In this document: positions 39,363 through 52,199 of the stretch, in pieces | Numbering within the stretch: the stretch's first letter is position 1 | Layout: each line of letters starts with the position of its first letter | NCBI GenBank assembly: GCA_004212795.1 | Contig: SHBR01000004.1 | Coordinates: 1-64,000, forward strand | Direction of reading: 5' to 3' | DNA length: 64,000 bases | Source of the DNA: Candidatus Thioglobus sp. | Lineage (GTDB): Bacteria > Pseudomonadota > Gammaproteobacteria > Arenicellales > UBA868 | The notes under the pieces: generated by a model | Database searches by the model: none | Seen by the model: the letters and a program-made list of their open reading frames with translations, nothing else | Told to the model about the DNA's origin: nothing | Made by a program: the position numbers and the translations under genes

Positions 39363-40028
39363 TTGCGAATTCTTATTGTTGATGATCACGCATTATTTCG
39401 TTCGGGCTTGCAAGGATTATTAGAGCGTAGAGGCATAACGGTTGTGGGTTCCGCTGCAGATGGACAGGAGGGCCTAAAGCTTGCCTATGCGCATCAGCCC
39501 GACGTGGTGCTGCTTGACCTACGGATGCCGGACTTAAGCGGGCTTGGGGTGTTGCGCCAGATGCTTGACGAGGGTCTCGAGATACCGGTTGTGATGCTGA
39601 CGACAAGTGCTGATGAGGGTGATCTTGCGGAGTCACTTCGAAATGGTGCCCGAGGTTACCTTTTGAAAGATATGGAGCCGGATGAATTGATAGTGGCGCT
39701 CCAGGAAATAGTCGGCGGGAAAATTGTTGTTGCCCCAGCTCTAACTAGTGTGCTCGCTGACCTCGTTCGATATGGCGAGCGCCGAGAGCGCAAAGATGAG
39801 TTTGCCCCTTTTAGTAGTTTGACGCCAAGAGAGCATGAAATCCTTTGCCACCTTTCTGAAGGGCAAAGCAATAAGGTTATCGCCCGAAATCTTAATATCT
39901 CAGATGGAACTGTGAAACTTCATGTTAAGGCAATCCTTAGAAAATTAGGCGTGCATTCGAGGGTAGAGGCCGCCGTAATGGCAGTTGAGAAGGGCGTTTG
40001 CAAGCGGGAGGTGCGTGAAAAGACTTAA
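39363..40028 (+). CDS. NarL/FixJ-family response regulator
   Basis: The receiver domain has acidic pair Asp7-Asp8 and phosphoacceptor Asp52 (LLDLRMPDLSG), with Lys101 region YLLKDMEPDEL. The C-terminal LuxR-type helix-turn-helix reads LTPREHEILCHLSEGQSNKV and then ISDGTVKLHVKAILRKLGV. Start is TTG; AGGAGAAC lies before it. It pairs with the kinase ten bases upstream and is a good candidate to control dsr and sox, but no target site is proven. Confidence 0.92.
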   Translation: MRILIVDDHALFRSGLQGLLERRGITVVGSAADGQEGLKLAYAHQPDVVLLDLRMPDLSGLGVLRQMLDEGLEIPVVMLTTSADEGDLAESLRNGARGYLLKDMEPDELIVALQEIVGGKIVVAPALTSVLADLVRYGERRERKDEFAPFSSLTPREHEILCHLSEGQSNKVIARNLNISDGTVKLHVKAILRKLGVHSRVEAAVMAVEKGVCKREVREKT

Positions 40029-40047
40029 ATCTAGTCTTCCCCCGGAC

Positions 40048-40356
40048 TTAAAGATAAGATTTTCGCTCGCTCCGTTTTCGACCCGAACGCTGGGTGACCA
40101 CACCACGAATTAAGTTCGCGCTTCCAATCCGTATACGGGGGAACCCTTCCTGTAGCGCTTGAAGCGACCACTCATTATTTTCAATAACCAGTTGTCTTAA
40201 GATTACGCCATCCCCATGTTCGGCAACGACAAAGGCGCCGTGACGAATGGGCGCGCCTGGATCGACGATAACGACACATCCTTCAAAGAATTCTGGCGCC
40301 ATGCTTTCGCCTAGCACTTGAAGGGCAAAAGGTTCTGCAGAAGCGCAGCCGCTCAT
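40048..40356 (-). CDS. LexA C-terminal-like (S24 fold) protein coupled to ptsI
   Basis: The 102-residue product is an isolated S24 peptidase-like domain with nucleophile-type Ser18 (LQVLGESMAPEFFEG), as in LexA and UmuD. The catalytic lysine position appears replaced by Arg54 (GVILRQLV), so peptidase activity is doubtful. No DNA-binding domain is present. Its ATG overlaps the ptsI stop (ATGA), so it is translationally coupled to the phosphotransferase. It is convergent with the response regulator gene. Function is unknown. Confidence 0.78.
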   Translation of the reverse strand: MSGCASAEPFALQVLGESMAPEFFEGCVVIVDPGAPIRHGAFVVAEHGDGVILRQLVIENNEWSLQALQEGFPRIRIGSANLIRGVVTQRSGRKRSERKSYL

Positions 40357-42104
40357 ACTCCTGAACCTGCGTTAAGTGTATCTAAGAGTCGATGCGACGT
40401 ATGACTATCAGAAGAGTTCAGAATCTGACCGGCTAATTCAATAAGATCAGCCGTGTAGCTGGTCAGCACCTGCTGTCGAATCTCGAGGAGTTGAGAAGGC
40501 TCCATGCTGAATTCTCGAAGACCGAGTCCCAACAGCAGTCGGGTGAAGTTTGGATCGCCAGCCATCTCGCCACACATAGCGACCGGAATTTGGGCATCCT
40601 CACCCGCGCGAATTATATTTTGAATGAGGCGAAGGACTGAGGGATGCAACGGATCATACAGATAATTTACGGTGTCATCGACGCGATCAATGGCTAAGGT
40701 ATATTGAATTAAATCGTTTGTGCCGATGGATAGGAAGTCCAGCTTGCTTGCGAACAGATCAGCTGAAATGGCGGCAGCAGGCACTTCAATCATGCCTCCG
40801 ATAGGCAAATTGGCATTGAAAGTTAAACCGTCTCGATCAAGCTCACCGCAGACTTCGCGGATGATCGCAAGTGCTTGTTCGAGCTCCTGGAGGCTCGACA
40901 ACATTGGAATCATGATACGCGCCTGCCCGAACTGAGCCGCTCGAAAAATAGCTCTCAGTTGGGGCTTAAACAGCGAGGGCTCACTAAGGCACAGTCGTAT
41001 TGCGCGTAGTCCCAACGCTGGCGTCATGCCCACTTTAGGTTCTTTACGCCCTCCATCGACTTGCTTATCCGCGCCAAGATCCAATGTGCGGATCGTTACA
41101 GGATCATCAACAGACTGAAGGACATGACAATAAGCGTTGTACTGCTCCTCCTCGCTTGGGAGATTTTCACGATTCATGAAAAGAAATTCTGTTCGGTATA
41201 AACCGACCCCCGATGCGCCACTATCTTTTAAAGTGTCTAGATCCTCGGGCAATTCAATATTGGCAAGCAGTTTGATAGGTCGACCATCTGCAGTAACGGG
41301 CTGAACTGTTCGGAGTTTAGACAGTTCATTTTGCCTTAATCGCTGACTTTCCCGGGCCGACTTGAAAAATTCGAGTGTGGCATCGTCAGGCGCGACAACA
41401 AGTACGCCAGATGCCGCGTCTACGATTAGATAATCGTTGTTACGGATTGAACGGGTCACATCATGCAGCCCTACGATAGCCGGTATCGCGAGACTTCGGG
41501 CAAGAATAGCGGTATGTGAGATCGGTCCGCCTAAACTTGTAACGAATGCTGATAAATGACGTTGTCGTAACATGATGGCATCCGCAGGACTGATATCTCG
41601 GGCAACAATGATTTGATCACTAAGCACCTGATCAATGCCACCGGTTAGCTTGTGAGCATCAGAATCGGAGCGGATCAGAATGTCCATGATGCGATCAACG
41701 ACTTGGGCGACATCCTCTCTTTTGGTTCGAAGATAGGGATCCGAAATATTGTCGAAGAAAGATATTAGGGTGTCTGAATGATTCTGTAGCGACCATTCTG
41801 CATTAATTTGATGTTCTGCAATGGAGGCGATGGGTTGTTCGGACAGAACTGGATCATCTAACATCATAAGATGCACATCAATAAATGCTGCTGTTTCCGG
41901 AGGCGCTGAATCAGGTAAATTATCCTGGACATGTTTGAGTTCACTGCGTACAAGTGAAATTGCGTGACTGAAACGGCTGATCTCTTGGTTTATCTCGTTT
42001 TTCTGTAGGCGGTAGTTAGGAATTGCACTGCGGGATCGATCCCATATGAGGGCCCGGCCGATTGCAATTCCCCGACCGATGCCGGTACCCGTCAGTGCAA
42101 ACAT
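40353..42104 (-). CDS. ptsI: Phosphoenolpyruvate-protein phosphotransferase (enzyme I)
   Basis: Enzyme I takes phosphate from PEP and passes it to HPr. The phosphorylated histidine is His197 in LGGPISHTAILARSLAIP, and the PEP-binding barrel contains YRTEFLFMNR and MCGEMAGDP. At 583 residues it lacks the N-terminal GAF domain of PtsP. With ptsH and ptsN but no sugar permease nearby, it probably serves a regulatory PTS. Its start overlaps the ptsH stop by one base (TAATG). Confidence 0.95.
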   Translation of the reverse strand: MFALTGTGIGRGIAIGRALIWDRSRSAIPNYRLQKNEINQEISRFSHAISLVRSELKHVQDNLPDSAPPETAAFIDVHLMMLDDPVLSEQPIASIAEHQINAEWSLQNHSDTLISFFDNISDPYLRTKREDVAQVVDRIMDILIRSDSDAHKLTGGIDQVLSDQIIVARDISPADAIMLRQRHLSAFVTSLGGPISHTAILARSLAIPAIVGLHDVTRSIRNNDYLIVDAASGVLVVAPDDATLEFFKSARESQRLRQNELSKLRTVQPVTADGRPIKLLANIELPEDLDTLKDSGASGVGLYRTEFLFMNRENLPSEEEQYNAYCHVLQSVDDPVTIRTLDLGADKQVDGGRKEPKVGMTPALGLRAIRLCLSEPSLFKPQLRAIFRAAQFGQARIMIPMLSSLQELEQALAIIREVCGELDRDGLTFNANLPIGGMIEVPAAAISADLFASKLDFLSIGTNDLIQYTLAIDRVDDTVNYLYDPLHPSVLRLIQNIIRAGEDAQIPVAMCGEMAGDPNFTRLLLGLGLREFSMEPSQLLEIRQQVLTSYTADLIELAGQILNSSDSHTSHRLLDTLNAGSGV

Positions 42105-42376
42105 TACTCTTCCTCTCCAAAGCGATCGCGGATAAGCTCGTGAACGCCAGCGATCGCCTGCTCTGCATCGACACCTTCTGCGATTAGCGTTAACCGGGCG
42201 CCTTGAGATGCTGCAAGCATCATCAGGCCCATAATGCTTTTAGCATCAGCACGAGCACCCTCTTTGATAATCCAGATTTCACTGGAATACAGCCCCGCTG
42301 TTTTTACAAGTTTGGCGCAAGCTCGCGCGTGAAGACCGAGTCGATTGATAATTTCAATTTCGAGTTGTTGACGCAT
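42104..42376 (-). CDS. ptsH: HPr-family phosphocarrier (NPr/HPr)
   Basis: HPr relays phosphate from enzyme I to EIIA proteins. The 90-residue protein has His16 in NRLGLHARACAKL and a regulatory-type serine at 47 (DAKSIMGLMML). It is coupled to ptsI downstream. Genomic position near rpoN and ptsN suggests an NPr role, but with one carrier in view it may serve all EIIAs. No rapZ lies between it and ptsN. Confidence 0.94.
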   Translation of the reverse strand: MRQQLEIEIINRLGLHARACAKLVKTAGLYSSEIWIIKEGARADAKSIMGLMMLAASQGARLTLIAEGVDAEQAIAGVHELIRDRFGEEE

Positions 42377-42412
42377 TTTTTAAGCAGGATAAAAGTACGG
42401 ATCGAGATTGAG

Positions 42413-42431
42413 CGGTTTTAGTTAAAAACCG
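42413..42431. repeat. 7-bp inverted repeat upstream of ptsH
   Basis: CGGTTTT and AAAACCG flank the five-base loop AGTTA. It lies about 40 bases upstream of the ptsH start and downstream of ptsN (both minus strand). No T-run follows, so it may be an operator or a weak 3' hairpin of the ptsN transcript. Confidence 0.45.
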
Positions 42432-42582
42432 ATGGCAATATTTTTTAACATTGACGAGCGGAATAAATGAACACAGGTTCGCTAAACCGACAACACTAAA
42501 TCTATCCTAAGTCTTCCGAAAAGTGGTGCTTTTGCGTTTCAGAACGGGGCCGCTCAACTTGTGGGAAAAATACCTGAGGTTG

Positions 42583-43065
42583 CTAGATTAACAGATTGAA
42601 AAGTGCATCTGGACTAGAGGCTTCGAAAACAGTTTTGCGAAAATCCGTGTTGGAAAATGCACCTGCAAGCTCGCTGAGGACTTTCAGATGCTGGTCTGTT
42701 GCTTCTGCAGGAACGAGAAGGCCAATTACAATTGTGATCGGTTTGTCATCAATTGCATCGAAATCGAGCGGTTGATGAAGTTTCATTGCCGCTGCAATTG
42801 GATTTGAGATGCCATTAAGTCTGCCGTGCGGCAGCGCAATACCGTCTCCAATGCCGGTACTGCCTAGACGTTCGCGCTCATTAAGTACTGAAAAAACGGT
42901 TTGCTGATCCATGCCTGGCAGTTGTCGAGACAATAGTTCTGCCATTTCCTCAAGCATACGCTTTTTGCTCGAGATCTTTACGTCGACGGCAACACGATCT
43001 CTGCTCAGAAGTGTCCCTAATGGGCCGGAATCGACTTCTGGCCCAGATTGGATGGTCTCGTTCAT
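42583..43065 (-). CDS. ptsN: Nitrogen-regulatory EIIA (PtsN)
   Basis: PtsN is a regulatory phosphoacceptor of the nitrogen PTS that affects potassium transport and other targets. The EIIA active histidine is His80 in GIGDGIALPHGRL. 160 residues, standard length. It lies downstream of rpoN as usual, but the hpf gene commonly found between them is missing. Confidence 0.93.
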   Translation of the reverse strand: MNETIQSGPEVDSGPLGTLLSRDRVAVDVKISSKKRMLEEMAELLSRQLPGMDQQTVFSVLNERERLGSTGIGDGIALPHGRLNGISNPIAAAMKLHQPLDFDAIDDKPITIVIGLLVPAEATDQHLKVLSELAGAFSNTDFRKTVFEASSPDALFNLLI

Positions 43066-43213
43066 AACGAACCCCGGTGATTTTTGATTGAGTTTCGATT
43101 TATTGAGTAGTTTAAAAAATTTGCGACACGGTTTTTGACGATGACTTTAGTTAGCAAATGTTCTGCGCAACATGCAGCGATTCAAGGATTCATCGAGACC
43201 TCGAAAGGGTAGT

Positions 43214-44671
43214 CTAGGTGATACTCCGACGCTGAGCGGCTGGGAGAATTTTCATTTGTTCACGATATTTAGCGACAGTCCGCCGAGCGATTGTGATGCC
43301 ATCTTCGTTTAGCATTGCAACGAGTTGGTTATCACTCACAGGCTGCTGTGCGGATTCGGATTCTATCACTTTACGGATTTTGGCTTGCGCCGCTCTCGCA
43401 GAGGTTTGGGAGCCGTTCGATCCGCCTAGACTTGCGGAGAAAAAATGCTTGAGCGCAAATAAACCGTGTGGGGTCAGGATATTCTTTTGGTCAATGGCCC
43501 GCGAGACAGTAGATTCATGAATATCGAGTTGATTCGCAATATCGCGCAGTGTCATGGGAACCACACCCATATCGCCTGACGTCATAAAGTCGAGCTGCAT
43601 CGACACAATAGTTTGGGTGACCTTGAGAATTGTCTGATCACGCTGCTCAAGACTTCGAATAAACCACTGCGCATCCTGAAGGTGATTCTTGATGTATTCG
43701 CTGGTTTTTTTATCAGAACTATTCTGGTAATGTCGATAATCTTGACTGATTCGAATGACAGACCCATCTGGTCGAACAAGGCGCACCACCCATTCTTGGT
43801 CAACTTTCTTGACGACCACGTCGGGAGAGATCGCCTGATCAACAGATGGGGTTAGCTCTTCCCCTGGCTTTGGGTTCAATGACTGAATCAGGTTGATCAC
43901 TTTGGCGAGACGACTCTGGTCGATTTCAAGTTCTTGCCCGAGCGCGGTGTACTGATGTTTTCCAAGGCGATCAAGATGATTGCTGACAATTTTTTTTGCG
44001 TCTTCGATGTAGGCGGTTTGTTTATCTAGACCGTGAAGTTGCAGCATTAGGCATTCTCTTAGGTCTCGTGCTGCGATGCCGGGTAAATATAGGCTTTGAA
44101 CAAGATGTAGTACTGAGTCTATTTCTTTATCAGAAGGGCTATCCGTCGGATCGAGAATACTGCGCAATTCATCGTAGTTAATCGGGAGATAGCCTCGATC
44201 ATCGAGGGAGCCAATGAGGGCATGGGCAATGAGTTCGTCAGGTCTACTCAGTCTATGCAGCGCAAGTTCTTCGAGAAGTCGGGTTCTTAAATCTTGGCCG
44301 GAGTCATGCCACATCGGTTGGTCGGTTTCCGCACGAAATTCATGGCTAGATTCCGAGTGAGGTCGATAAGGTCGATCATCCCAATGCAGACTGTCATAGT
44401 CGGTCAAAATCATTTCTGATTCGGTGATTGGCGACTCCTGATTGGGTTCCGGCTCAGTCTGAGTCAGGGGTTCAATTTCTCCTTCAGAAGGCGTTGGGTC
44501 ATCTGAATAATTGAGACTATCAACACCTTCCAGCAATGGATTTGTCTCAAGTTTATTTTGAATTTCAAGATCCAAGTCCACTCGCCCCAGTTGTAAGAGT
44601 CGAAGCGATTGGGTAAGTTGAGCATTAAGCTGAAGGCGGCGACTTTGCCGAATTTGCAAAGAATGCTTCAT
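43214..44671 (-). CDS. rpoN: RNA polymerase sigma-54 factor
   Basis: Sigma-54 directs polymerase to -24/-12 promoters with the help of AAA+ activators. The glutamine-rich activator-interacting N-terminus (RRLQLNAQLTQSLRLLQLGR) and the C-terminal RpoN box ARRTVAKYRE (462-471) are intact. 485 residues, a normal size. It lies between lptB and ptsN, the conserved order. I saw no clear sigma-54 promoter in this window. Confidence 0.97.
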   Translation of the reverse strand: MKHSLQIRQSRRLQLNAQLTQSLRLLQLGRVDLDLEIQNKLETNPLLEGVDSLNYSDDPTPSEGEIEPLTQTEPEPNQESPITESEMILTDYDSLHWDDRPYRPHSESSHEFRAETDQPMWHDSGQDLRTRLLEELALHRLSRPDELIAHALIGSLDDRGYLPINYDELRSILDPTDSPSDKEIDSVLHLVQSLYLPGIAARDLRECLMLQLHGLDKQTAYIEDAKKIVSNHLDRLGKHQYTALGQELEIDQSRLAKVINLIQSLNPKPGEELTPSVDQAISPDVVVKKVDQEWVVRLVRPDGSVIRISQDYRHYQNSSDKKTSEYIKNHLQDAQWFIRSLEQRDQTILKVTQTIVSMQLDFMTSGDMGVVPMTLRDIANQLDIHESTVSRAIDQKNILTPHGLFALKHFFSASLGGSNGSQTSARAAQAKIRKVIESESAQQPVSDNQLVAMLNEDGITIARRTVAKYREQMKILPAAQRRSIT

Positions 44672-44692
44672 TAGTGAGCTAACTTTAGATGG

Positions 44693-45418
44693 TTACAGTC
44701 GAAACTCTGATCCAAGGTATACCGACCGGACCTCTTCGTGGGCAAGAATATGGTCTGATGTGCCCTCGGTGAGTACTCGACCTTGCGTCAGAATATAGGC
44801 TCTGTCACAGATACCCAAAGTCTCTCTCACGTTATGATCAGTAATAAGCATACCAATACCCATTTTTTTTAAGTCGCTTATCAACTTCTGGATATCAATG
44901 ATTGAAATGGGATCGATACCTGCGAAGGGTTCATCAAGCAACATAAAGGAAGGTTTCAGGGAAACCGCTCGCGCAATCTCAACCCGCCGCCGCTCGCCTC
45001 CAGAAAGACTATAGCCATAATCTTTCGATTTGTGAGCAATGCCGAAAGTCTCCATCATTTCCATGGCTCGGGCCTGCCGGCCATTTTGATCGAGCCCTGG
45101 CAAAGCCTCGAGGACGGCTAAGATATTTTCTTTCACAGTGAGACGTTTGAAAATGGAAGCTTCTTGCGGCAGATAGCCAATGCCCCGACGTGCTCGCTCA
45201 TGCATGGGTAGATCGCTGATGTCATTACCATCAAGAACAATGTGTCCATTATCCCGTCGTATCAGACCGCAGATCATGTAAAAGCAGGTTGTCTTGCCCG
45301 CACCGTTGGGCCCCAGCAGACCCACGATTTCACCACCGCTGACGGCGACATCCACATTATCCACTACTGTGGTTCGACCAAAGCGCTTAACAAGGCCTTT
45401 TGTGGCAAGTGAGCTCAT
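44693..45418 (-). CDS. lptB: LPS export ABC transporter ATPase LptB
   Basis: LptB powers extraction of LPS from the inner membrane with LptFG. Walker A is GPNGAGKT (36-43), the signature LSGGERRRVEIARA and Walker B FMLLDEPFAGID are all present. 241 residues, the usual size. It sits between lptA and rpoN, the standard order. lptF and lptG are not in the window. Confidence 0.97.
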   Translation of the reverse strand: MSSLATKGLVKRFGRTTVVDNVDVAVSGGEIVGLLGPNGAGKTTCFYMICGLIRRDNGHIVLDGNDISDLPMHERARRGIGYLPQEASIFKRLTVKENILAVLEALPGLDQNGRQARAMEMMETFGIAHKSKDYGYSLSGGERRRVEIARAVSLKPSFMLLDEPFAGIDPISIIDIQKLISDLKKMGIGMLITDHNVRETLGICDRAYILTQGRVLTEGTSDHILAHEEVRSVYLGSEFRL

Positions 45419-45457
45419 GACCGTTTTATAGAAGAAGTAGGTGCATTATCTGCACGA

Positions 45458-46507
45458 CTAGTTAGAAGACGATTGAGTCTGCGCTTGCCAATCTTTTTTC
45501 CAGCGCTCCATATCATTTGATAATTCAAGTCGGCTGGCGGGAGTCCAGACTTTAATCGATTCGGGCGCTTCGATTTTTTTCCAACTTCCTTTAGTTGCCA
45601 GTACCCGTACCTGCTGCCCCGTGTTCAACTCTCCAAGAATGACCGATTCCTCGCCCGTTGAAGGCATGGATCGAATTCTGACGTTGGATCCAGTAGCAAC
45701 GCCAATGCCTGAGCTGGTTGAGACAAATTTTCCATAAACCCATACCCGAACCGCTCTGGACGAATTAATTTCTGCCCAGCCGTCAGTTGACCTCAATACG
45801 CGGGCCGCAGTCCCTTTTGGGAGCGTGCCAAGCGATGTACTGGTCATACTGCGTTTGGAAAAAACTGGGGCGCCGTTATTTCCAATGAAAGCGATCTGGG
45901 TATTCTTGCTGGTGGCAACATCGGGCGAGTCAGTACGGGTCGCAATATTCCGGGACTGGGATGATTCAGGCTGAAGAACCATTCGTGGGCGTTCATTATC
46001 TTTTGCTTTAAGGACGGTCGTGGCATCCTCTCCCGCGCGGGTGGTGCGGGTCGGCGCCTCGTCTCCACTTCTGACGATCATTCGGTCTCGCCCCATGTCG
46101 TAGACGATTTTTTCGCCCTCAATTGCATCTCGATCCTGTCGAAGCTGGGCTCTTGTAATGAAGGTGACGATGTTATTGACTTCATCGAGCTTGATTGTCT
46201 GGCCTGTGCCCACGACATCATGTTCTTTTCCATCCGGCCGTTGGCGGAACACTGCAGGATTTCCAGTCGCGACGGCGTGATCGAGCTGTTCTCCATCGTA
46301 AAAAAGTTCAATTTGATCTGCAATAATCCGAATGGTGCCTTGGCGGACTGAAACATTGCCGGTATAGATGCGCTTACCGTTGGTAAAGTCAATCTCTACC
46401 TCGTCAGCCTCTACCAAAACACTTTGATTCCGGTCAGACTCAAGCGCCCACGCGTTCAGGGTGGAGAGCAGCAAAATGATAAAACTTAGAAAGAATGTGT
46501 AGGCCAT
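45458..46507 (-). CDS. lptA: LptA-type LPS transport protein fused to two SH3b domains
   Basis: LptA forms the periplasmic bridge that carries LPS to the outer membrane. After a signal peptide, residues 22-150 form the OstA/LptA jelly-roll (SVLVEADEVEIDFTNGKRIY). A linker follows and then two bacterial SH3-like repeats at about 203-263 and 268-329 (NVRIRSMPSTGEESVILGEL). At 349 residues it is almost twice the usual 180-200. The SH3b part may bind peptidoglycan or a partner. Frame is continuous, so the fusion is real and not a frameshift. Confidence 0.9.
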   Translation of the reverse strand: MAYTFFLSFIILLLSTLNAWALESDRNQSVLVEADEVEIDFTNGKRIYTGNVSVRQGTIRIIADQIELFYDGEQLDHAVATGNPAVFRQRPDGKEHDVVGTGQTIKLDEVNNIVTFITRAQLRQDRDAIEGEKIVYDMGRDRMIVRSGDEAPTRTTRAGEDATTVLKAKDNERPRMVLQPESSQSRNIATRTDSPDVATSKNTQIAFIGNNGAPVFSKRSMTSTSLGTLPKGTAARVLRSTDGWAEINSSRAVRVWVYGKFVSTSSGIGVATGSNVRIRSMPSTGEESVILGELNTGQQVRVLATKGSWKKIEAPESIKVWTPASRLELSNDMERWKKDWQAQTQSSSN

Positions 46508-46544
46508 GTCTAAATTTTAACAAAAATCAACCTTGGTTGATGCG

Positions 46545-46985
46545 CTAACTGTCTCGATCCAAATGAACTAAAAGTCGCTGGGTGCGTGTTATGTTGCCAG
46601 GGTCGTCGTTACTGCGGAATTGCTCTACTTCTACATCGCCCGTTAGCAAGATCTCATTACCGTCTCCTGACATCCAGCCAGATTCACTCGTTGTACGCCG
46701 AGAGGGCTGACCTTTTTCATATTGAATCAGTTTAGGTTTATCTAGCAACGATGTATTGTCGTCGGGAAAGTGAACCAGTCTCTCTGCTTTGAGGACATAA
46801 ATAACACCCACCTCGTCCCGCCCGGTGGCGGTGAAATTTTGGATGTAATAGTCAGGTTCGCGTCCTGGTCCAGATACGGTTTCTGTTGTGACGGGCTCCA
46901 GAAGACTAATCTGCATCCAGATTCCGAGTGCTGCCATGACGCAGAGTACGGCAACTAGAATCGCCCGATCGAGGTACTGCTTCAT
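46545..46985 (-). CDS. lptC: LPS export protein LptC, short form
   Basis: LptC is the bitopic inner-membrane anchor that takes LPS from LptBFG to LptA. A membrane helix lies at residues 9-27, followed by the periplasmic beta domain (YYIQNFTATGRDEVG; GDVEVEQF). At 146 residues it is shorter than the E. coli protein (191), lacking part of the C-terminal beta strands where LptA docks. Gene order kdsD-lptC-lptA-lptB supports the call. Confidence 0.85.
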   Translation of the reverse strand: MKQYLDRAILVAVLCVMAALGIWMQISLLEPVTTETVSGPGREPDYYIQNFTATGRDEVGVIYVLKAERLVHFPDDNTSLLDKPKLIQYEKGQPSRRTTSESGWMSGDGNEILLTGDVEVEQFRSNDDPGNITRTQRLLVHLDRDS

Positions 46986-46992
46986 CTTAGTC

Positions 46993-47964
46993 TCAGAGGA
47001 TGCGCGCTCGAATTAGATCGAGAGCATTTAAAGCGCCAATAGGATGCCCATTACGATCTACCACGAAAAGACCATTAATCGAGTGAAGTTGCATTATTTC
47101 GAGCGCCTCAACGGCGAGAATGCTCCTTGATATTTTATGAGGGGAGGAAGTCATGACGGCTTCGATATAGCTTTCATGTACGTTTATGTTTTGAGATAGC
47201 GTGCGCCTGAGATCGCCATCGGTGAACATTCCAACGAGCAACCCTTCCGCATTAATGACGCCAACCATTCCGAGCCGCTTTAGAGACATCTCTGCGATAG
47301 CGTCAACGAGGGTCGCCTCTAGTGAGACGATCGGGAGGTCGTCATCGGTGTGCATGATATCTTCGACATAGATCAGAAGACGTTTGCCCAATGTTCCGCC
47401 TGGGTGTGAGCGCGCAAAATCTTCTTTCTTAAAGTTTCGTGCTTTTAAAACCGAAACAGCGAGTGCGTCGCCCAATGCCAGTGTGGCCGTCGTGCTTGCA
47501 GTGGGCGCTAGATTATGAGGACAGGCTTCACGATCGACACCAATGTTCAAGGTAAACGTAGATGCGCGTGCAAGCGTTGAGTTTAAACTTCCAGTCATTG
47601 CGATTAGCGTCACTTCCATTCGCTTAATGATGGGTACAATGGCCTGAATCTCTGGTGTTTCGCCCGAGTTCGAAATTGCGATAACGATATCATCTGGCGT
47701 GATCATGCCAAGATCACCGTGACTGGCTTCTCCCGAATGCATAAAAAAGGAGGGCGTGCCTGTGCTTGCAAGAGTTGAAGCGATTTTGCTTCCGATTTGA
47801 CCCGATTTTCCTGTGCCGGTGACGACGATTCGACCCGCGCAGGAGATAATAGCTTCACAGGCCCGTGAGAAATCCGAATCGAGGCGGCGGCTTATTGTGT
47901 CAAGGGCCTCGCGTTCACATTCGATTACGCGCCGAGCATCAGAAAGGAAAGAGCTCTCTGTCAT
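46993..47964 (-). CDS. kdsD: D-arabinose 5-phosphate isomerase
   Basis: KdsD converts ribulose 5-phosphate to arabinose 5-phosphate, the first step of Kdo synthesis. An N-terminal SIS domain (VVTGTGKSGQIGSKIASTLAS; SNSGETPEI) and two CBS domains (from about residue 205) give 323 residues, the usual design. The Kdo-8-phosphate phosphatase gene kdsC, normally between kdsD and lptC, is missing; only seven bases separate them. It is divergent from the DUF72 gene. Confidence 0.95.
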   Translation of the reverse strand: MTESSFLSDARRVIECEREALDTISRRLDSDFSRACEAIISCAGRIVVTGTGKSGQIGSKIASTLASTGTPSFFMHSGEASHGDLGMITPDDIVIAISNSGETPEIQAIVPIIKRMEVTLIAMTGSLNSTLARASTFTLNIGVDREACPHNLAPTASTTATLALGDALAVSVLKARNFKKEDFARSHPGGTLGKRLLIYVEDIMHTDDDLPIVSLEATLVDAIAEMSLKRLGMVGVINAEGLLVGMFTDGDLRRTLSQNINVHESYIEAVMTSSPHKISRSILAVEALEIMQLHSINGLFVVDRNGHPIGALNALDLIRARIL

Positions 47965-48080
47965 TTTTTAGTATTGAGATAACGCAATTAAACGCTTACA
48001 AAATTTAAACGGTTTCCGGTTATTCTAAAGGAAAGCGCGCTGACATAAAGGTTAATTCCCGTTTTTCATACCCGTTGCCA

Positions 48081-48731
48081 ATGACAATTCAAATAGGAAC
48101 TTATGGTTGGCAGAATCCGAGATGGAATGGGAGCTTTTACGATCCGGATCTTCCCGAAGAATGGAAGCTTTCCTGGTACGCCAATCATTTTCGGACCGTA
48201 GTGGTGCCGTCAGAAGAGGTGCTAAAACTCAGCGTGGATACGATCGACCAGTGGGTCGAAGATACCGATTCTGATTTTCGATTTATTTTGGAAATTGACC
48301 CTAAGTTTTTTCTCCAAAATCGATCAAACGAGCTGAGCTGCAAGTTTCAGATGTTTGAGAATCACTTTCAAGGACAGTTAGAAGCTGTGATTTGTAAGAG
48401 CACTAGAGCTAAACTGATAAAACATGATGAGTATGAAACTGTTCAAGCCGGTCTCTCCCGTGCGATTGTCTGCGTCGATACATCTGGGTGTGATCATGTG
48501 CCCGATAAATACGGTCGAAGTGGTATTGATGATCAACTACCAGAAATGAAGCCAAATCTCTTTGCGATCGTGTACTCTTCGCGGGGACAATTGCTTCTAA
48601 TCCGCGAGAATCTTGAAAAGATGAAACGTCTTAACTGCGAGAAGTGCACGTTGATTTTCAATCATCAAGAGTCCGCTTATCATCACGCGGCTCAAGCTCG
48701 AATCCTGGCCGATCTTATGGGTGACGCATGA
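48081..48731 (+). CDS. DUF72-like (YecE-type) protein
   Basis: The N-terminus (IQIGTYGWQNPRWNGSFYDP) matches the start of the DUF72 TIM-barrel family, and the later RFILEIDPKFF fits the second conserved block. At 216 residues it is shorter than usual. The function of DUF72 is unknown; a metal or nucleic-acid-linked hydrolase role has been suggested by fold only. ATG at 48081 is preferred over TTG at 48075. The stop overlaps the next start (ATGA), so it is coupled to the exporter. Confidence 0.75.
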   Translation: MTIQIGTYGWQNPRWNGSFYDPDLPEEWKLSWYANHFRTVVVPSEEVLKLSVDTIDQWVEDTDSDFRFILEIDPKFFLQNRSNELSCKFQMFENHFQGQLEAVICKSTRAKLIKHDEYETVQAGLSRAIVCVDTSGCDHVPDKYGRSGIDDQLPEMKPNLFAIVYSSRGQLLLIRENLEKMKRLNCEKCTLIFNHQESAYHHAAQARILADLMGDA

Positions 48732-51223
48732 ACGTTTTTATTGAACAATATAAAAAGTGGGTACTCTTAAATCCGTGGCCGCTGCTTATTGTATTGCTCG
48801 TGATTTTGGGTTGCTTTACGTGGCACGCCCAAGATTTTAGATTGGACGCCTCAGCTGATTCGCTTCTGCTGGATGATGATCAGGACCTCAAGGCCTATCG
48901 AGAGCTTTCTGATCGATATGGATCAAAAAACTTTTTGGTCGTCGCCATTGTGCCCGATGCGCCTTTATTTAATCGCGTCACTTTAGACCAGATGGAGTTG
49001 CTCGCATCAGAGTTAACTGAAATTCCAGGCGTTGAATCGGTTAATTCGATTTTGGATGTCCCTCTGCTTTCGCAGAGTGGGGGTTCTTTGACGGAACTCG
49101 CCGGCAACTTTAGGACATTGCGTGATCCTGACATTGATTTTGATCGTGCCCGGATGGAACTTATTAATAGTCCGGTATTTTCAGAGCTTGTCGTGAGCGT
49201 TGACGGAATGACGACAGCACTTCAACTTAATTTGGTCAACAACTCCGATTTCGAGCGAGTAAAAAATTTAAAGCGCAGGCTTTCTCTCAAAATGAGTCAA
49301 GGCAGCATTAGTGAAGAACAAAAGCTGCGCTTGGATGACGTGTCTGTGGAATATCAGCGTCTTAAAGATGAAGTAAATCAGTTGAATCATGAAACGATTG
49401 CATCAATCCGTCAGGTACTCGACAAATATCGACCGATGGGTCATCTCATGTTGGGCGGTGTTTCAATGATCGCGGATGACATGATTTCGTTTATTCGAAA
49501 TGACCTCATTAAATTTGGTGCCGGCGTCATGATTTTTTTGATCGTGATGCTTGCTGTGATTTTTCGCTCGGCAAGATGGGTTGTTTTGCCATTAGCAAGC
49601 TGCGCATACGCAGGAATGATAATGATTGGCCTGCTCGGGATGGCGGGCTGGCAAGTGACCGTTATCTCCTCGAATTTTATTTCTCTGATGTTGATTCTTA
49701 CGATGTCGATGAATGTCCATCTCGTCGTTCGTTATCGACAGCTCGCAGCTGAAAATTCATCCTGGTCATATCAGGAGACATTGTGGGTCACGATGCGAAA
49801 GATGGTTTGGCCTTGTTTCTACACAGCATTAACCACTGTTTTAGCCTTCGGCTCCCTAGTGTTAAGCAGCATTAAGCCTGTTATTGATTTTGGCTGGATG
49901 ATGTCGATTGGATTATTAGTGACATTTCTCGTTTCGTTTCTATTTTTTCCGACGGCAGCTGCCGTATTGCAAAAGCCTGCTATCACGAACGACCGGCAGT
50001 CACCGGGCACACGGATCACCGGATGGCTTTCCCACCTCTCGGCGAAACATGGCCGGTGGGTGATTTCTGTCTCTCTCTTGCTTGGAATATTCGGCGCAGT
50101 TGGAATTTCGAAATTACAGGTTGAGAATAGTTTCATAAATTATTTTGGCAAGGGGACGGAGATCTATCAGGGTCTCAAACTCATCGATCGCGAGTTAGGC
50201 GGAACCACTCCACTCGAGGTCTTGATTCGGTTTGATCCTGAGCCGTCTATTAATGAGGCACAGGATGAGCAAGATGACGAGCTGGACTTGCTGCTGGGGA
50301 GCGTGTCGCAGGGAGACCCGGTCGATTATTGGTTCACGCCGCAGAAAATAGAGACGGTGTCGGCGGTTCACGATTTTCTCCAGCGTCAATATGGAGTGGG
50401 TCAGGTGCTTTCATTGGCATCGTTGATCCGAGTGGGTGAATCAATTAGCCAGCAGACTTTTGATGCGTTTGAGTTGGCCGTTCTGTACAAACGGATGCCT
50501 GCTGATCTAAAAGCGGCTTTGCTAACGCCTTATGTGTCAATCGAGAGAAATGAAGTCAGGCTATCGGCCCGAGTGAAAGATTCATTGCCAAACCTGAGAC
50601 GCAATGATCTACTGAAAGAAATCCAGGTTGGGTTAGAAAAAGAGCTTGATCTTAAGTCTCAGAATTTTCAGATCTCAGGACTTGTTGTTCTATACAACAA
50701 TATGCTTCAGAGCCTTTTTGAGTCTCAAATCAAAAGTTTGGGCGTGGTGATGCTGGGAATCGCAGTCATGTTGCTTGTGTTGTTTCGATCAATCAAATTA
50801 GCCTTGATTGGCGTGGTTCCCAACATATTGGCTGCATCAATCATTCTGGGGTTGATGGGGTGGTTAAGGATCCCGATGGATATGATGACGATTACGATCG
50901 CCTCAATTACGCTTGGAATCGCGGTGGATAACAGTATTCACTATCTGTATCGATTCAGAACCGAGCTGCCACGTCTCGGCGACTACGTGGCGACGCTCCA
51001 CTACTGCCACGCCAACATCGGCCGGGCCATTTTTTACACAGCTACCACGATAATAGTAGGGTTTTCAATTTTGGTGCTATCTAATTTTCTACCGACAATC
51101 TTTTTTGGCCTTTTAACCGCGCTCGGAATGGCCATTGCACTTTTTGCTTCTCTTACCTTATTACCGCAGCTTATCTTGCTGATTCGTCCTTTTGCCATAA
51201 AGACAGAAAATCACCATTTGTGA
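48728..51223 (+). CDS. MMPL/RND-superfamily exporter
   Basis: This 831-residue inner-membrane protein has the RND duplicated layout: an N-terminal helix, a large periplasmic loop (about 40-260), a block of helices (about 265-420), a second loop and a second block (about 670-820). It resembles the COG1033-type exporters of lipids or hydrophobic compounds. It is coupled to the DUF72 gene upstream and to mlaC downstream (GTGA overlap). This mirrors hopanoid transporters, where an MMPL protein (HpnN) and a MlaC-like protein (HpnM) pair, but the substrate is unknown. Confidence 0.88.
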   Translation: MNVFIEQYKKWVLLNPWPLLIVLLVILGCFTWHAQDFRLDASADSLLLDDDQDLKAYRELSDRYGSKNFLVVAIVPDAPLFNRVTLDQMELLASELTEIPGVESVNSILDVPLLSQSGGSLTELAGNFRTLRDPDIDFDRARMELINSPVFSELVVSVDGMTTALQLNLVNNSDFERVKNLKRRLSLKMSQGSISEEQKLRLDDVSVEYQRLKDEVNQLNHETIASIRQVLDKYRPMGHLMLGGVSMIADDMISFIRNDLIKFGAGVMIFLIVMLAVIFRSARWVVLPLASCAYAGMIMIGLLGMAGWQVTVISSNFISLMLILTMSMNVHLVVRYRQLAAENSSWSYQETLWVTMRKMVWPCFYTALTTVLAFGSLVLSSIKPVIDFGWMMSIGLLVTFLVSFLFFPTAAAVLQKPAITNDRQSPGTRITGWLSHLSAKHGRWVISVSLLLGIFGAVGISKLQVENSFINYFGKGTEIYQGLKLIDRELGGTTPLEVLIRFDPEPSINEAQDEQDDELDLLLGSVSQGDPVDYWFTPQKIETVSAVHDFLQRQYGVGQVLSLASLIRVGESISQQTFDAFELAVLYKRMPADLKAALLTPYVSIERNEVRLSARVKDSLPNLRRNDLLKEIQVGLEKELDLKSQNFQISGLVVLYNNMLQSLFESQIKSLGVVMLGIAVMLLVLFRSIKLALIGVVPNILAASIILGLMGWLRIPMDMMTITIASITLGIAVDNSIHYLYRFRTELPRLGDYVATLHYCHANIGRAIFYTATTIIVGFSILVLSNFLPTIFFGLLTALGMAIALFASLTLLPQLILLIRPFAIKTENHHL

Positions 51224-51279
51224 TTAGCGGGTTAATTCTGGAGAATACAGTTCTGGATATTCCGGAAAACCCCAATTAC

Positions 51280-51921
51280 ATGTCGCGCTCCAAAACCTTT
51301 CATCGTCGTTACAGGATCACCAACATAATGTTGGCCATAGGGCTTTTGAGTGGGTGGATCAATCTCGCGTGGGCCGAGAAAAGTGCCGATGAGATGATTC
51401 GCAGTACCGTCAATGAGGTTGTTGCCGAGCTTGAAAGCCGTCGGGCAGAGTTAGAGGCAGACCGTCTCGCGCTTTATGAACTCGTGGACAGAATTGTGGT
51501 ACCGAGAATCGCGCTCGATAGAGTTTCGCGACTGATTTTGGGCGATTATGCCAAGGCAGCCAGTGAGACACAGCGCCAGCGTTTTTCTGAAAGCTTTAAA
51601 GACCTTATTATGCGGAGTTACGCGAGTGCAATGTTTGAGTATACTGGCGAGCAGGAAATGCGCTTTGGAGAGGTCAGTGTGCGTGGCGGTGGGCGGATTT
51701 CGGTCGTGCCTTCGGAATTAGTACTTTCTGGACAACAATCAGTTCAGGTTGATTATTATTGCTTGAGAGATGCAGATGCGGGTTGGCAGATCTACGATAT
51801 CCAGATCGATGGCATCAGTTTAATTATTAGTTACCGAAATCAATACGGTGAATTTATTGCGAATAATGGATTGGATGCACTGATAGAGTCTCTGGAACAG
51901 AAAACTGCGGAAGTTAACTGA
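51280..51921 (+). CDS. mlaC: MlaC/Ttg2D-family periplasmic phospholipid-binding protein
   Basis: MlaC shuttles phospholipids between outer and inner membranes. The signal peptide starts at ATG 51280 (MSRSKTFHRRYRITNIM to AWA), and the mature part has the family stretches LVDRIVVPRIALDRVSRLIL and SFKDLIMRSYASAM. A GTG at 51220, overlapping the exporter stop, would add 20 residues before the signal and is less likely to be the start. The usual mlaFED upstream and mlaB downstream are absent; instead an MMPL exporter precedes it. Confidence 0.88.
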   Translation: MSRSKTFHRRYRITNIMLAIGLLSGWINLAWAEKSADEMIRSTVNEVVAELESRRAELEADRLALYELVDRIVVPRIALDRVSRLILGDYAKAASETQRQRFSESFKDLIMRSYASAMFEYTGEQEMRFGEVSVRGGGRISVVPSELVLSGQQSVQVDYYCLRDADAGWQIYDIQIDGISLIISYRNQYGEFIANNGLDALIESLEQKTAEVN

Positions 51922-51962
51922 GCATTGGGATTTAACGCCAGACGTGAAAAAAGGATGACGCT

Positions 51963-52199
51963 ATGGTGACACCAGAAGACATAAAGGGCTGGATTGAGGA
52001 AAATCTGGAAGGCTCAAGGGTTGAAATCACGGGTGATGGACACCATTTTGATGCAGAGATAATTTGTGATGGGTTCGAAGGAAAAAATCGAATCCAGCAG
52101 CATCAAATGGTGTACGGCGCCTTAGGCGATCGCATGAAAGCGCAGATTCACGCGCTATCGATGCGTACGCTTACGTCCAAAGAGAAAAACGCGCAATAG
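51963..52199 (+). CDS. ibaG: BolA-family protein IbaG
   Basis: BolA/IbaG proteins work with monothiol glutaredoxins in iron-sulfur trafficking. The 78-residue product has the conserved histidines in GDGHHFDAEIICDGF and the loop QHQMVYGALGDRMK. It stands before grxD and murA; the ibaG-murA link is standard. Adjacent grxD makes a natural [2Fe-2S]-bridged pair. Confidence 0.94.
   Translation: MVTPEDIKGWIEENLEGSRVEITGDGHHFDAEIICDGFEGKNRIQQHQMVYGALGDRMKAQIHALSMRTLTSKEKNAQ

Follow-up and report, generated by a model that had tools for sequence, protein, structure and literature searches.

An LptA protein in which the periplasmic lipopolysaccharide (LPS) bridge domain is continued in frame by two SH3b domains is encoded in the window, meaning the whole stretch of 64,000 nucleotides that was analysed. 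It is a real, conserved and recurrent form of LptA, for which tethering to peptidoglycan is the most likely, if unproven, role. LptA is joined to modules of the wall-binding type in at least three lineages. The component families are known, and no description of the fusion was found in the literature searched, which covered few subscription papers and included PMC8159010, PMC10119676 and PMC7481262. Within that literature, the architecture, its fixation across a family and its repeated origin appear to be undescribed.

The protein is read from a continuous frame of 349 residues, as the preliminary description had it, and its composition of LptA plus two SH3b domains is borne out by profiles, by models and by many separate genomes. 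The gene and the parts of its product are as follows.

45458 to 46507, minus strand: lptA-SH3-SH3 gene, ATG start, 349 amino acids plus stop
46445 to 46507, minus strand: residues 1-21, probable signal peptide, by eye (hydrophobic, ends before LES; helix 2-26 in the AlphaFold2 model)
46067 to 46444, minus strand: residues 22-147, LptA beta-jellyroll domain (LptD_N at 32-139; VIA alignment to 4uu4; family identity 73.5%)
45902 to 46066, minus strand: residues 148-202, tail with the conserved motif RPRMVLQP, then a variable linker (predicted disordered)
45722 to 45901, minus strand: residues 203-262, first SH3b domain (best SH3_3 stretch 212-263; SH3-pair model)
45518 to 45715, minus strand: residues 265-330, second SH3b domain (two SH3_3 stretches; invariant columns; SH3-pair model)
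45461 to 45517, minus strand: residues 331-349, C-terminal helix with conserved W336 and W340, counted into the SH3 module

The frame matches Pfam LptD_N (PF03968) over residues 32-139 at 3.7e-25 (88.8 bits against a cut-off of 20.4) and scores 118.3 bits on the NCBIfam LptA model TIGR03002 (cut-off 71.7). Its C-terminal half matches Pfam SH3_3 (PF08239) in two stretches (7.7e-12, 45.6 bits against a cut-off of 27), and a weaker SH3_4 match at residues 274-313 lies under that model's own cut-off. SH3_3 was matched by 21 of the 25 members of alignment A2, and the remaining four fit, by count, a cut sequence (L052) and three non-fused outliers (L054-L056). No Pfam match to an NlpC/P60 catalytic domain was found in the protein. 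The LptA core is followed at 45968-45991 by a motif resembling R-[PS]-R-[IVLM]-[VI]-[IL]-x-P, which is conserved in most of the LptAs read from the order, fused or non-fused.

In the full-length AlphaFold2 model, the LptA strands occupy residues ~30-146, residues 147-202 have pLDDT below 50, and the SH3 pair (204-330, block means 77-91) is followed by a helix at 333-345. The SH3 pair modelled alone gave a pLDDT of 91.3 and a pTM of 0.84. The LptA domain aligns with the solved structure 4uu4, which we take to be P. aeruginosa LptH, at VIA Z 22.5 and rmsd 1.5 over 136 residues. The best VIA neighbours of the SH3 module are SH3b domains of peptidoglycan hydrolases, with each alignment spanning only about one SH3 domain's residues at once: 3npf (Z 10.6, rmsd 2.8, 74 aligned), YrvJ (9a7d; Z 10.6, rmsd 1.6, 68 aligned), 3pvq (Z 10.2, rmsd 3.0, 76 aligned) and 4r0k (Z 10.2, rmsd 3.0, 79 aligned), with lower scores for Trichomonas NlpC2 (6biq, Z 8.9), a phage endolysin (4krt; Z 8.8, rmsd 1.6, 63 aligned) and LytB (4q2w, Z 8.3). 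The rows that name SH3b of wall proteins among the best range from Z 10.6 to 8.2. The single-domain extent of these alignments counts against wall tethering, and so do the nearly equal score of a eukaryotic SH3 domain, that of Ephexin4 (7cso, Z 8.0), and the weakness of the Foldseek hits to the SH3 pair, whose best E-value is 1.9e-3. A fold in common with the SH3b of wall hydrolases is no demonstration of function. The preliminary description would have fallen had the SH3b domains found no profile or structural backing; the SH3_3 match is above its cut-off and an SH3b fold is predicted, so both halves of the protein are upheld by domain search and structure prediction alike. The size of ~185 residues that it gave as normal for LptA is about that of many LptAs without the fusion in the order, the rest being longer through a low-complexity tail.

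The fused gene sits in a standard lpt operon, in which kdsD, lptC, lptA-SH3, lptB and rpoN all run in one direction.

46993 to 47964, minus strand: kdsD, arabinose-5-phosphate isomerase, directly upstream of lptC
46545 to 46985, minus strand: lptC, 146 amino acids, with profile matches
44693 to 45418, minus strand: lptB, 241 amino acids, with a profile match, adjoining lptA-SH3
43214 to 44671, minus strand: rpoN, downstream of lptB

A single LptA match per genome was obtained in all 29 family genomes that have one. The rest of the Lpt machine is also found: genome G000 carries LptD (882 amino acids) and two LptF/LptG genes, and in a wider sample LptD was detected in 20 of 25 genomes and LptF/G in 23 of 25. 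The five genomes that lack LptD are all incomplete metagenome-assembled genomes (75-95% complete) from the window's family. No additional domain was seen in LptD when read by eye. The 146 residues of LptC had been described as shorter than usual and as a hint that the bridge co-evolved. The length holds, and the hint does not: within the order, the median is 146 amino acids (139-173) across 33 loci with the fusion and 151 (124-207) across 67 loci without it, in a comparison that counts some genomes twice. Because the medians are similar, short LptC is a feature of the whole order rather than of the fusion, and the argument from LptC for co-evolution of the bridge is rejected.

Several further features of the neighbourhood were seen. 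In most fusion-family loci (L031-L053), kdsD directly abuts lptC, as at 46985-46993 of the window, and in L054-L056 the two are separated by ~590-760 bases, a gap that could hold kdsC, which no longer seems to belong to the operon in the fusion family. Divergent from the lpt operon, at 48728-51223 on the plus strand, lies a gene for an MMPL/RND-family transporter of 831 amino acids, which adjoins a protein with a weak DUF72 match. No RNA element reached the gathering score at 40000-52000.

The survey of relatives that had been proposed was carried out on 109 genomes of the order Arenicellales, 33 of them from the window's family, and it found the fusion to be a property of the family. LptA was found in 29 of the 33 family genomes and is followed by in-frame SH3 sequence in 28 of those 29; the sole exception (G006) is cut short where its contig stops. 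Among the 28 fused proteins three are partial, G015 being without its N-terminus and G018 and G020 stopping at a contig end. A profile of the SH3 module, applied at 1e-3, picked up 34 of the 35 rows from the family and none of the 79 from outside it, where the rows include some genomes twice and the 35th family row is a named copy of the cut G006 contig. The fusion was not found in the LptAs read from the order's other families (70 of 71 LptA-bearing genomes, a 92-residue fragment in G085 being left out). The closest of these families, f7, is the sister group of the window's family (support 100/96). There were no viral copies among 87 pattern matches.

The SH3 part is under purifying selection. 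Nei-Gojobori dN/dS is 0.03-0.17 for the SH3 part in 9 of 9 pairs, 0.01-0.05 for the LptA core and 0.22-0.85 for tail plus linker (3 pairs). Mean pairwise identity within the family is 73.5% for the LptA core, 53.5% for the tail, 16.4% for the linker, 47.6% for the first SH3 domain and 49.4% for the second. The SH3 part thus evolves faster than the LptA core, which was counted against wall tethering. Its invariant residues include W244, W256, R277, R279, PST at 282-284, W309 and W321, with R277 and R279 belonging to an invariant VRxR..PST in the second SH3b domain.

A fusion that is carried along neutrally, or that arose as an artefact of assembly, is very improbable. The data are from metagenome-assembled genomes of an uncultured marine family, and the lower conservation of the SH3 part relative to the core would suit a passenger, but the frame is intact in 28 of the 29 LptA-bearing family genomes, purifying selection acts on it, and equivalent fusions occur in Nitrosococcus. 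Recurrence of the same frame in many separate genomes and named records speaks against both chance and misassembly, and an assembly artefact is ruled out by the family genomes.

A likely source of the module was found within the order. Most family genomes, as well as other families of the order, encode Sel1-repeat proteins in which an SH3-SH3-WxxxW-helix module occurs once or twice, and the window module matches it from end to end, at best with 34-36% identity over 119-138 amino acids. The C-terminal helix (H133-148 in the SH3-pair model, with W336 and W340 invariant in alignment A3) occupies the same place in the Sel1-SH3 proteins. Because the match runs end to end, the LptA tail looks like one complete SH3-SH3-helix module captured by LptA. 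The Sel1-repeat/SH3 proteins (L137-L148) differ from LptA-SH3 in carrying the module behind Sel1 repeats, often in two copies, and in having no LptA domain. We know of no ligand for these proteins, the closest sequence relatives of the SH3 part, and this was counted against wall tethering. In L137, L138 and L148, the Sel1-SH3 gene adjoins a gene for a probable membrane protein, judged by eye. A SPOR domain was suspected by eye in L140 and L142 and was discarded, L142 having no Pfam SPOR match.

Fusions of LptA to SH3 domains also occur in the order of G250, which we take to be GTDB Nitrosococcales, with its family f14 presumably Methylophagaceae. LptA was matched in 59 of 63 genomes, and the match continues through an SH3 domain in 57 of the 59; the exceptions are G477, a 1.1-Mb genome whose LptA is without SH3, and a fragment in G518. 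Representatives have SH3_3 above its cut-off. The LptA of G477 (L206) has 178 amino acids and is a probable case of SH3 loss through genome reduction; since this LptA lacks SH3, the tail is dispensable there, which was counted against wall tethering. The second order includes the named species Nitrosococcus oceani and N. halophilus: a small contig of G531 is identical to a plasmid of N. oceani ATCC 19707, and one of G530 to a plasmid of N. halophilus Nc 4 (6000 bases compared in each case). The AMO family is present in 6 of 6 genomes of family f178. Like the window protein, those of the second order (L153, L169-L198, L199-L205) consist of LptA, a linker and SH3_3 domain(s), but they usually have one SH3 domain where the window protein has two. 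Read by eye, the G529 protein has two SH3-like repeats, of which one exceeds the Pfam cut-off, and the G534 protein has three.

The two groups of SH3 fusions did not arise from one event. The Nitrosococcus-order SH3 domains match those of the window at ~19-22 bits and are not detectably closer kin. In a tree built on the LptA core together with LptB (71 rows), the two groups form separate clades, and forcing them into one costs 189 log-likelihood units (p-AU 6.7e-51), so a single shared origin is rejected. A third fusion, seen in one genome (G032; L077 / L029), likewise joins the LptA core to a wall-binding-type module, with LysM (9.3e-11) in place of SH3, located between the core and the terminal RARLVIQP motif.

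In a survey of the class, LptA was found in 332 of 370 genomes, and 40 long-frame loci were read, giving two SH3 fusions (L153 and L154, both from the second order) and one LptC-LptA fusion, the remaining loci mostly reflecting upstream extension of the frame. Frames of ~230-260 amino acids were read in part, a 401-residue frame in G126 and 16 weak-scoring genomes were left out, and the survey may miss single-SH3 fusions elsewhere. When 397 genomes sampled across the phylum were searched with the fusion profile, only the window spanned both LptA and SH3 among the matches listed; no second-order genome is among those matches, and therefore the sample is a poor measure of rarity. The LptC-LptA fusion (L211; G269:C1 near 117114-117512, minus strand), with LptC (3.9e-20) and LptA (6.4e-20) in one frame, is a natural one from a 1.7-Mb gammaproteobacterial genome. 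The G126 frame (C467:45980-47059, minus strand) has two LptA-family matches in its 401 residues and is a possible tandem LptA.

We consider it somewhat more probable than all the other readings taken together that the fusion is a working LptA tethered to the wall, whose linker-borne SH3b module binds peptidoglycan or, less likely, a wall-synthesis protein. As the only LptA detected in the lineage, the fused protein would still do LptA's job, its jellyroll domain forming the periplasmic bridge for LPS between LptC and LptD. A flexible linker of ~55 residues would bear the tandem SH3b module, which most likely binds stem peptides or glycan of peptidoglycan, a wall-synthesis protein being the less likely ligand. 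The module would then hold LptA at the wall, keeping Lpt bridges at particular sites in the cell wall or favouring their formation there. That peptidoglycan is the ligand, and that LPS export is coupled in space to the wall, is what we infer from the domain type, from the repeated recruitment of different modules and from two precedents. The periplasmic SH3 domain of H. pylori Csd5 binds peptidoglycan (PMC9507126). TagV, an SH3b lipoprotein of the trans-envelope type VI machine, is a proposed peptidoglycan binder, and a conserved tryptophan of its SH3b domain occupies a pocket of positive charge close to the RT loop (PMC7614798). The repeated fusion of LptA to wall-binding-type modules supports the earlier idea of a peptidoglycan-tethered LptA.

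Comparison with known proteins sets out what is new in the arrangement. LptA of E. coli (2r1a) and LptH (4uu4) have in common with the window protein the jellyroll domain, the lpt operon and the status of sole LptA found in the genome, and the window protein is longer by ~165 residues (linker, two SH3b domains and C-terminal helix). NlpC/P60 hydrolases with SH3b, Csd5, TagV and ElsS likewise place SH3b in periplasmic or wall proteins, but they have no LPS-transport domain, and LptA-SH3 has no hydrolase domain.

The main rival to wall tethering, which we hold to be unlikely, is that the SH3 pair binds a protein such as a wall synthase, a hydrolase or another envelope protein, and so brings that partner to the Lpt bridge, or the bridge to the partner. 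Acinetobacter baumannii depends on ElsS ('SH3_and_anchor') for its rod shape, and ElsS gave signals with PBP2 in two-hybrid tests (PMC7481262); the SH3 part of the window protein matches SH3_and_anchor (TIGR04211) at 2.8e-8, below the threshold for membership (33.6 of 65 bits). Against a protein ligand, the best structural neighbours of the module are SH3b domains of wall-degrading enzymes and the third fusion uses LysM, classically a glycan binder. It is less plausible, and indeed rather improbable, that the tail has no ligand in the wall and has its effect within the Lpt bridge, by contacting LptC, LptD, LPS or the edge strands of LptA, or as a spacer or stabiliser. The tail does come after the C-terminal end of the jellyroll, which in known bridges faces the LptD side, and the LptA of G477 is intact despite the absence of SH3. 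A long linker of predicted disorder between LptA and the SH3 domains argues against such contacts, and because unrelated modules were recruited in different lineages, a shared ligand in the wall fits better than a specific Lpt contact.

If right, wall tethering bears on how LPS transport is coupled to the growth of the wall, a question that PMC11898776 treats as open. We propose, tentatively and with the odds against it, that LptA with an SH3 or LysM tail is a repeatedly evolved coupler of LPS export to the wall, in which the tail reads the local peptidoglycan and bridges form where wall is being built. If this is true, a wall-reading LptA would provide, naturally and within one protein, the link that is sought between LPS transport and wall growth. 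Bridge proteins that bear a module of the wall-binding type have arisen at least three times and give a direct handle on the question raised by Dubois et al., and two of the carriers, Nitrosococcus oceani and N. halophilus, are named species. Given similar fusions in separate lineages, there may be a physical tie between LPS export and the wall.
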